IMG/VR virus record: IMGVR_UViG_3300041955_000607
Location: 1-62,921 of that record
Length of the DNA stretch: 62,921 nt
Source of the DNA: a virus
Direction: 5' to 3' (one strand)
The translations under genes and the position numbers were made by a program. A model generated the notes under the pieces. The model did no database searches. It was not told where the DNA came from and was given only the letters and a program-made list of their open reading frames with translations. How positions within the stretch are numbered: the first letter of the stretch is position 1; every line of letters starts with the position of its first letter. Positions 5,784 through 60,586 of this stretch are shown in pieces.

Positions 5784-6266
5784 CTAGCAACACTTTTTCC
5801 GTTTATTGTTTGCTTGTTCTTTCCACGTGGCCCAGCGGCAGTTTGATGGCTCGTAGTTACCATTTGTGTTGATTCGGTCTAACGTAGGTTTGGAGCGCGG
5901 TCTATGTCCCATGTCAGTGAGAAAATTATCGAACGATTTTCTCCATCGCGGGCATACGATTATCCCTCGGCCTCCGTAATGCTGAAAAGAAGAATACTTA
6001 GGGTAATAGCAGCGTTGAAGCATATTCCAATATGCCCAGTATTCTGGCGTTCCCCAATGCTTGTGTGTGAACCTTTGCTCTTTTTGAAGACATCCGCAAC
6101 TTTTGGTGGGGTTAATTCTGGCATTCAACGCTTTTCCGAGTATCTTTTTTTTCATCCCACAATCACAACGACAAAGCCACAAGCTGCGACGGTCTTGATT
6201 TGGAACTCTTTTGAGAACAACAAATCTTCCGAATCGTTTCCCTGTCAGTGCAAGTACTTTTCGCAT
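5784..6266 (-). CDS. HNH/AP2-type homing endonuclease-like protein (family copy 1)
   Basis: 160 residues on the minus strand. N-terminus KRFGRFVVLKRV, then a Cys-rich part (WLCRCDCG, SCGCL), then the family core: YGGRGIIVCPRWRKSF, DMGHRP, LDRINTNGNYEP, NCRWATWKEQANNKR. Three other genes here (21498, 40923, 52148) share this core. Such genes occur as mobile intergenic elements in phages, and this one is inserted antisense in the tail operon. Activity is inferred from the family. Confidence 0.7.
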   Translation of the reverse strand: MRKVLALTGKRFGRFVVLKRVPNQDRRSLWLCRCDCGMKKKILGKALNARINPTKSCGCLQKEQRFTHKHWGTPEYWAYWNMLQRCYYPKYSSFQHYGGRGIIVCPRWRKSFDNFLTDMGHRPRSKPTLDRINTNGNYEPSNCRWATWKEQANNKRKKCC

Positions 6267-6322
6267 AATGGTTCAATTATAAGGGAAACAACGCGGTTAA
6301 TCCATAAGGAGGTAGAAAGTCG

Positions 6323-59948: not shown

Positions 59949-59990
59949 CCGGCGTGTTGCTCGCGAGAGTGGCACGCCGGTTTTGTTTTT
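59949..59990 (+). terminator. Rho-independent terminator
   Basis: Perfect 8-bp stem CCGGCGTG (59949-59956) and CACGCCGG (59973-59980), a 16-nt loop, then TTTTGTTTTT. It separates the scaffold/decoration unit from the tRNA-capsid unit. A TTGACA lies immediately downstream (59995-60000), with a weak CAAATT at 17 bp, just before ATG 60030. Confidence 0.85.
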
Positions 59991-60029
59991 CCACTTGACA
60001 CTGTTTTCACTCTATGGCAAATTCTTCGC

Positions 60030-60482
60030 ATGAGACCTGACCGCTAGATTCCCACTGAAAGTTCTGCCATCGAAAGTTCTTACGTCTACGTGTTTGTTCG
60101 CACTGATATTCCTCTCGCTCATCAAATCGTTCAATCCAATCACGCTGTTTATCATCTGGCAGGTTTGCGTTACGAAGATGGCAATCCGAATCTTGTCGTG
60201 ATCGGCTTGCCCAGCAAATCCTCATTGCAGCGCACACTTCACAAGTTGGAAACACACCAGATCCCGCACTATGCGTGGACTGAACCTGACAATGATTTTG
60301 GACTGACAGCAATTGCGACAGCGCCACTCCGCGGAGAGGAGCGCAAGGTTCTCGCGAACTATCGAATTTATGCTCCTGTAGCTCAACAGAAAGAGCACCC
60401 CGTTCTAAGCGGGGAGGTTGTAGGTTCAATCCCTACCGGGAGCGCCAACCGGGGAGGCGCGGAGGCATCTGCGCGGGCTTGA
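60030..60482 (+). CDS. PTH2-type peptidyl-tRNA hydrolase with in-frame TAG at codon 6
   Basis: Domain: YVYVFVRTDIPLAHQIVQSN then HAVYHLAGLRY, NPNLVVIGLPSKSSLQRTLH, WTEPDNDFGLTAIATAPLRG, EERKVLANYRIY. This is the PTH2 fold, which releases peptides from stalled peptidyl-tRNA. GTG 60090 would delete the first beta-strand (SYVYV). The only upstream ATG in frame (60030) is separated from the domain by TAG at 60045, so a full enzyme needs amber read-through or a non-standard start. The 3' end has no stop before the tRNA and runs in frame through it to TGA 60480. Confidence 0.65.
60372..60447 (+). tRNA. tRNA with anticodon CUA (amber suppressor), CCA encoded
   Basis: Cloverleaf read by eye: acceptor GCTCCTG/CGGGAGC, D stem GCTC/GAGC with an 8-nt loop AACAGAAA lacking the usual GG, anticodon stem CCCCG/CGGGG with loop TTCTAAG, variable AGGTT, T arm GTAGG-TTCAATC-CCTAC, discriminator G, CCA at 60445-60447. 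Anticodon CTA at 60405-60407 reads UAG. Nested in the 3' end of the PTH2 frame. Confidence 0.85.
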
Positions 60483-60500
60483 GTGCCGCTCCCCGGACCA
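60449..60500 (+). ncRNA. Mini tRNA-like element with CCA
   Basis: Arms CCGGGGA (60449-60455) and TCCCCGG (60490-60496) pair perfectly over 7 bp and are followed by A and CCA (60498-60500), like an acceptor stem. Inside is a T-arm-like hairpin next to the 3' arm (GCGG, bulged G, C, loop TTGAGT, GCCGC). There is no room for D and anticodon arms. Possible tRNA-like decoy, processing signal or tRNA remnant. Confidence 0.5.
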
Positions 60501-60511
60501 ATTTTAACGGA

Positions 60512-60586
60512 GCGCGAGTAGCTCAATCGTAGAGCATTCGATTCTAAATCGAGGGGTTGTGGGTTCAAGTCCCGCCTCGCGCTCCA
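60512..60586 (+). tRNA. Second tRNA with anticodon CUA (amber suppressor), CCA encoded
   Basis: Acceptor GCGCGAG/CTCGCGC, D stem GCTC/GAGC with loop AATCGTA (no GG), anticodon stem TTCGA/TCGAG, loop TTCTAAA, variable GGGTT, T arm GTGGG-TTCAAGT-CCCGC, discriminator T, CCA at 60584-60586. Anticodon CTA at 60544-60546. The acceptor stem differs from the first tRNA, so the two may be charged with different amino acids. Confidence 0.85.

Follow-up and report, generated by a model that had tools for sequence, protein, structure and literature searches.

Early in-frame amber codons in PTH2-like genes beside phage amber suppressor tRNA genes: a putative read-through switch

The pyrrolysine cassette pairs a dedicated tRNA-CUA (pylT) with methyltransferase genes that carry an in-frame amber codon, while the code otherwise remains standard. 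The translation-apparatus gene prfB is regulated through an early in-frame stop, at which a programmed frameshift takes place. Code-15 phages (crAss-like and Lak phages) carry a tRNA-CUA that reads in-frame UAG, and a regulatory role in late-gene timing was reportedly proposed for these suppressor tRNAs by Borges et al. in 2022. An engineered system was described in E. coli by Ho et al., in which a suppressor tRNA together with a stop-bearing gene acts as a coherent feed-forward switch and leaky expression is prevented (PMC7969014). For several published phages, the purpose of suppressor tRNAs is given as unknown (XacN1, Summit) or only vaguely (RsoM2USA, Atu_ph07), and the authors of the XacN1 study reported finding no target for its suppressor tRNA.

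The locus considered here lies in a 62,921-base virus record from IMG/VR, the whole of which was analysed and is called the window, and it resembles each of these systems in part. As in the code-15 phages, a phage tRNA-CUA would read an in-frame UAG; however, TAG is a sense codon in many genes of those phages, whereas here it functions as a stop, and the gating is limited to one small operon, near its start codon. Like the pyrrolysine cassette, the locus combines dedicated tRNA-CUA genes with dedicated in-frame-amber genes, but no dedicated synthetase was noticed beside the tRNAs, and the amber codon usually falls at codon 2-6, outside the domain. Because of that position, and because TGA/UCA versions exist, it is unlikely to matter which residue is inserted. 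No PylRS or pyrrolysine biosynthesis gene was recognized among ten nearby proteins in a scan limited to Pfam and PHROG, and the ARAGORN label "tRNA-Pyl" denotes anticodon CUA and nothing more. The prfB system likewise regulates such a gene by an early in-frame stop, but its frameshifting is set by the RF2 level and involves no suppressor tRNA. The synthetic feed-forward loop (PMC7969014) has the same two parts, a suppressor tRNA and a stop-bearing gene, but is engineered; the phage module looks like a natural version. The decoding chemistry would be ordinary nonsense suppression, and the novelty appears to lie in the dedicated tRNA-plus-gated-operon arrangement, of which no description was found in the open literature searched (bioRxiv and most subscription journals were outside the scope).

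Suppressor tRNA genes and the adjoining PTH2-like frame

ARAGORN identified exactly two tRNA genes in the window, both on the + strand with anticodon CTA, at the positions where the preliminary description, made from the sequence without database searches, had placed two amber suppressor tRNAs and had recommended an ARAGORN run. The features of the locus are as follows:

59949..59980, + strand: intrinsic-terminator-like hairpin with a T-rich tail (consensus scan: 14 pairs, TTTTGTTTTT tail)
59995..60023, + strand: promoter-like element, TTGACA at 59995-60000, 17-nt spacer, CAAATT at 60018-60023 (from sequence)
60030..60044, + strand: start ATG and four more sense codons, M R P D R (from sequence; compare the relative L077)
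60045..60047, + strand: in-frame amber TAG (codon 6) gating the PTH2-like gene
60048..60371, + strand: PTH2-like coding sequence (Pfam PTH2 in relatives, AlphaFold, Foldseek)
60078-60371, + strand: structured PTH2-like domain, inside the PTH2-like coding sequence
60372-60447, + strand: tRNA 1, anticodon CUA (CTA), discriminator G73, CCA encoded (ARAGORN, Rfam)
60512-60586, + strand: tRNA 2, anticodon CUA (CTA), discriminator U73, CCA encoded (ARAGORN, Rfam)

Both tRNAs score well over the cut-off of the Rfam tRNA model (tRNA 1, 61.1 bits, E 8e-11; tRNA 2, 66.8 bits, E 2e-12) and have the canonical tRNA fold with a 7-nt anticodon loop, which together with the ARAGORN call establishes them as genuine tRNA-CUA genes. 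The details of the preliminary description held as well: the anticodon loops are TTCTAAG and TTCTAAA, CCA is encoded in both, and the acceptor stems are unlike, as are the anticodon stems. Each D loop, read from the sequence, contains a single G (AACAGAAA, AATCGTA), confirming that the usual G18G19 is missing from both. An alternative Arg-UCU register, already disfavored in that description, was ruled out because it would break the anticodon stem and because ARAGORN calls CTA instead. Across 68 suppressor tRNAs compared, the discriminator bases are mixed, mostly A and G, so that no single charging amino acid is implied. Among relatives, tRNA-CUA genes on the L073 and L077 contigs (L206 665-768 and L207 1379-1481) have an insert or long variable region of ~30 nt and were not called CUA by ARAGORN, and C33 stands in place of U33 in other tRNA-CUA genes (L204, L207).

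The preliminary description had favored selective amber read-through; this expectation was supported, but the likely target had been missed, namely the adjacent ORF at 60030-60482, which adjoins tRNA 1 upstream and contains a TAG early in its frame. The frame reads ATG AGA CCT GAC CGC TAG ATT CCC and then remains open up to the tRNA, and its relative in L077 reads M K P E R TAG I P T. Both tRNAs of the window are read as amber suppressors whose conserved dedicated target is the neighboring PTH2-like gene, joined in many relatives by an HD-domain gene beside it, a reading to which a probability of roughly 92% is assigned. Downstream, the open frame traverses tRNA 1, overlapping its sequence, to a TGA at 60480-60482. 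The same absence of a stop before the tRNA, with the PTH2-like frame running through it, was seen in the window (60372-60482) and in the relative L003 (2761-2836); in both, if gene and tRNA are co-transcribed, excision of the tRNA would leave an mRNA lacking a stop codon.

The protein encoded past the TAG has the PTH2 (PF01981) alpha/beta fold: its AlphaFold model has a pLDDT of 94.8, and the top Foldseek matches are Pth2 structures (TM 0.71-0.82), the significant matches comprising Pth2 structures and one entry titled protein of unknown function, Atu0240. At the profile level, the window member reaches only 14.6 bits against the Pfam PTH2 cut-off of 23, while 12 of 14 relatives are matched (best E 1.7e-6) and the family members of XacN1, RaK2 and Hallingskeid score over the cut-off. 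The family shares the fold and a conserved R..D......Q..H core with the Pth2/Bit1 peptidyl-tRNA hydrolases (PF01981), but differs from them in being stop-gated and in lacking the Lys of the canonical SxGK motif, which is absent from family alignments A2 and A7; because of this missing Lys, hydrolase activity is uncertain. No homologue was found in the bacterial genomes scanned with alignment A4.

The ATG at 60030 lies 6 nt past CAAATT, which would give an mRNA with little or no leader; no Shine-Dalgarno sequence stands upstream of this ATG. The promoter-like site was not listed by the consensus scanner because its -10 element is weak. Six relatives that also lack a Shine-Dalgarno sequence (L067, L068, L069, L072, L074, L077) have TTGAC(A/T) similarly spaced before the ATG, and in these and the window this promoter-like element would put the ATG near the transcription start. 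The upstream hairpin would close the preceding transcription unit; the consensus scan found 2 terminator-like sites vs 1.3 expected in shuffles.

Early stops and matching anticodons across phages

In each of the first three IMG/VR relatives, one to four sense codons separate the start codon from a TAG that is followed by an open frame, and a tRNA-CUA lies nearby; the same early-TAG layout is found in the named phages Kaldavass, XbC2, Arash, ME3, SNUABM_19, CBB and GAP32. Profile searches of IMG/VR yielded ~85 loci, or 70 after deduplication, including the window and the named phages. Near the start codon, the early in-frame stop is TAG in 58 of these, TGA in 2 and TAA in none, with no such stop in 10; the amber occupies codon 3 in 34 loci and codon 4 in 11. 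Among background ORFs, TAG is the upstream stop in only 24% (450/1894), giving a binomial p of ~1e-33 if loci are treated as independent. All but three of the 58 amber loci, i.e., 55, share their record with a tRNA-CUA, usually at a distance within 5 kb. ARAGORN called 47 of these in the fetched stretch; the other 8 either lie in another part of the record or escaped ARAGORN, those that escaped being accepted at an Rfam score of 50 bits or more. Of the three loci left over, two are contigs shorter than 15 kb, and the third, L131, has a degenerate tRNA-CUA candidate only. Setting amber against tRNA-CUA presence gives 55/3 against 4/6 (Fisher p ~1e-4). Since the loci are related, these p-values overstate independence and serve as guides only.

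Homologues without the early stop were considered as controls. Those of RaK2 and Hallingskeid have none, and a whole-record pattern search did not find a tRNA-CUA; likewise, the PTH2 genes of Aeromonas 65.2 and CC2 are ungated, with no tRNA found within 5 kb, CUA or other. Exceptions are L105, L106, L108 and L136, where a tRNA-CUA is present, yet the PTH2-like gene starts ordinarily; no clear alternative target was found in the fetched stretch of any of them. L119 was rejected as a case because its frame is broken and no tRNA-CUA was found; it reads MKSQ, where its sisters L120 and L122 have MRS/MKS plus TAG. Stenotrophomonas phage Summit has a suppressor tRNA (L053 49872-49942) but was also set aside, as neither a PTH2-like or HD homologue nor a convincing early-amber gene was found.

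In the two TGA loci, the tRNA differs accordingly: L069 (ATG CAT TGA) has one tRNA-UCA and L150 (ATG GAA TCG TGA) has two, with no CUA called in the fetched stretch of either, and the HD gene of L150 has an early TGA as well. Agrobacterium phage Atu_ph07, for which a UCA suppressor tRNA is reported (PMC6102473), had been named as a test case beforehand. One of its PTH2 genes reads ATG ATT GGC GAA CAC TTT TGA and is then open, with no ATG, GTG or TTG between the TGA and the domain; the annotated gene begins within the PTH2 domain. The tRNA-UCA is taken here from that paper and not from a tRNA scan, and the other two of the three Atu_ph07 PTH2 matches have no such early stop in the stretches inspected. 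As far as sequence can tell, these cases show that a change of stop codon goes with a change of suppressor anticodon.

About 40 loci have an HD-domain gene next to the PTH2-like gene; none was found in the window. An early TAG belonging to the HD gene itself is seen in L059, L075, L088, L101, L120, L145, L147, L148, L151 and L154, and an internal, positionally conserved TAG in the GAP32-like group, L080-L083 and L122, while some members have no TAG in this gene (e.g., L076, L093-L100, L102, L129). In the GAP32-like phages, the internal TAG is mid-domain, and dN/dS after it is 0.08. Additionally, XacN1 and CM1, both with a tRNA-CUA, encode the PTH2-like domain fused behind the HD domain in a gene that starts ATG AAA TAG, and Tenacibaculum phage pT24 encodes the fusion in reverse order, again with ATG AAA TAG and a tRNA-CUA. 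By structure and by profile, the HD protein is most closely matched by HD domains from A-adding tRNA enzymes (3wfo, E 2e-5; Foldseek E 0.2, probability 0.97, a weak structural match).

Read-through of the early stop

Alternatively, the early TAG could be a real terminator, with the protein made by re-initiation or from a non-standard start (ATT, GTT, AAC) and the tRNAs being unrelated passengers of the cluster. An ATG immediately past the TAG in two loci would suit this reading, as would mycobacteriophages Alice and Myrna, in which the TAG is closely followed by a GTG whose Shine-Dalgarno sequence is well spaced; that GTG start looks real, so these phages were rejected as cases and stop gating in them is doubtful. 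Elsewhere, however, the codon following TAG is variable (ATT, GTT, AAC, ACC, others), and the initiation signals fit the upstream ATG: a Shine-Dalgarno sequence (>=4 nt, spaced 4-13 nt) precedes it in 39 of 57 loci vs 13% of random ATGs, whereas only 4 loci have one before the codon that follows the stop. Moreover, re-initiation requires neither TAG over TAA (58:0) nor the switch to TGA in tRNA-UCA phages, and the internal HD-gene TAG of the GAP32-like phages sits mid-domain, leaving this reading very improbable. In the GAP32-like group, the 12 codons that follow the TAG have a dN/dS of 0.057 and the whole gene one of 0.105, a sign, in the group tested, of strong purifying selection on sequence past the stop. 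The base following the TAG is A in 42 loci, G in 13, C in 2 and T in none, i.e., a purine in 55 of 57, and a purine in this position is the context that amber suppressors favor. Taken together, upstream initiation, selection past the stop and the match between stop and anticodon imply read-through by the phage tRNA.

Suppressor tRNAs are also carried by the code-15 phages (PMC9523058, PMC7886860), and the PTH2-like gene could accordingly be one of many recoded genes in a genome where TAG is sense throughout. This is very unlikely, and was rejected because many ORFs of the window terminate in TAG: in a crude non-overlapping set, 10 of the 33 ORFs of at least 200 aa do so, as the preliminary description had noted for several genes. 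In a scan of the window and relatives, early ambers with a Shine-Dalgarno sequence were confined to the PTH2/HD families and a few one-offs, and the PTH2 homologue of code-15 phage Lak-B1 has no early stop. Selective read-through, preferred from the outset over recoding, is favored by a gated neighbor gene that is conserved in dozens of phages and whose stop matches the anticodon. Upstream of the ungated Lak-B1 homologue, at ~600 nt, ARAGORN calls a tRNA with anticodon TTA (L233 4338-4410). That the PTH2-like genes are pseudogenes being lost by nonsense mutation alongside decaying tRNAs is scarcely credible: an early stop alone resembles such a mutation and D or T loops are degenerate in some tRNAs, including the D loops of the window pair, but purifying selection past the stop is strong in the one group tested (dN/dS 0.06-0.1), and the stop matches the anticodon at a position shared by highly divergent phages.

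Under read-through by the phage tRNAs, initiation would occur at the ATG at 60030 and the ribosome would meet UAG as the sixth codon. In the absence of the phage tRNAs, a five-residue peptide would be freed by host RF1 and no PTH2-like protein would be made; once a host synthetase has charged the transcribed and processed tRNA-CUA, some ribosomes would insert a residue at the UAG and complete the protein. Since the stop is so early that the truncated product would be useless, this would be an on/off or dose switch and not a source of two isoforms. If gene and tRNAs share one transcript, a coherent feed-forward loop would result. The gate would keep both the PTH2-like protein and the HD protein off, or scarce, for as long as suppressor levels are low. 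Charging, expression, read-through in the cell, regulatory purpose and enzyme activity are all inferred, there being no expression, charging or proteomic data for this system. Both proteins probably act on tRNA or peptidyl-tRNA, again by inference. The gating may serve to hold back a protein that acts on tRNA until suppressor has built up, to provide feedback on suppressor activity or to sense tRNA damage, and all three remain open. A broader proposal can be offered only tentatively and is on balance doubtful: that these loci form an undescribed, widespread module in which an amber or opal suppressor switches on a gated PTH2-like (often also HD) gene and also senses the state of tRNA or translation in the infected cell, both enzymes answering on tRNAs. 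The state sensed could be, for example, tRNA-cleaving defences or release-factor competition.

The PTH2-like gene provides a concrete conserved target for the suppressor tRNAs of XacN1, Atu_ph07 and many other phages, and the early stop explains why standard annotation truncates, splits or misses such genes. The idea of a natural switch is directly testable in cultured GAP32, Acinetobacter ME3, Salmonella Arash, Xanthomonas XacN1 and Atu_ph07. Apart from the early stop, a second, internal TAG was observed in the PTH2-like frames of L135 (7913-8212, YLIPP-TAG-EDHPH) and L214 (about 6000-6270, EFP-TAG-IYE), and L141 has, at about 9237, a second PTH2-like frame upstream of the first with an amber at codon 2 (M-TAG-IGSKLIVITRRDLSPGYQAVQAAKK).
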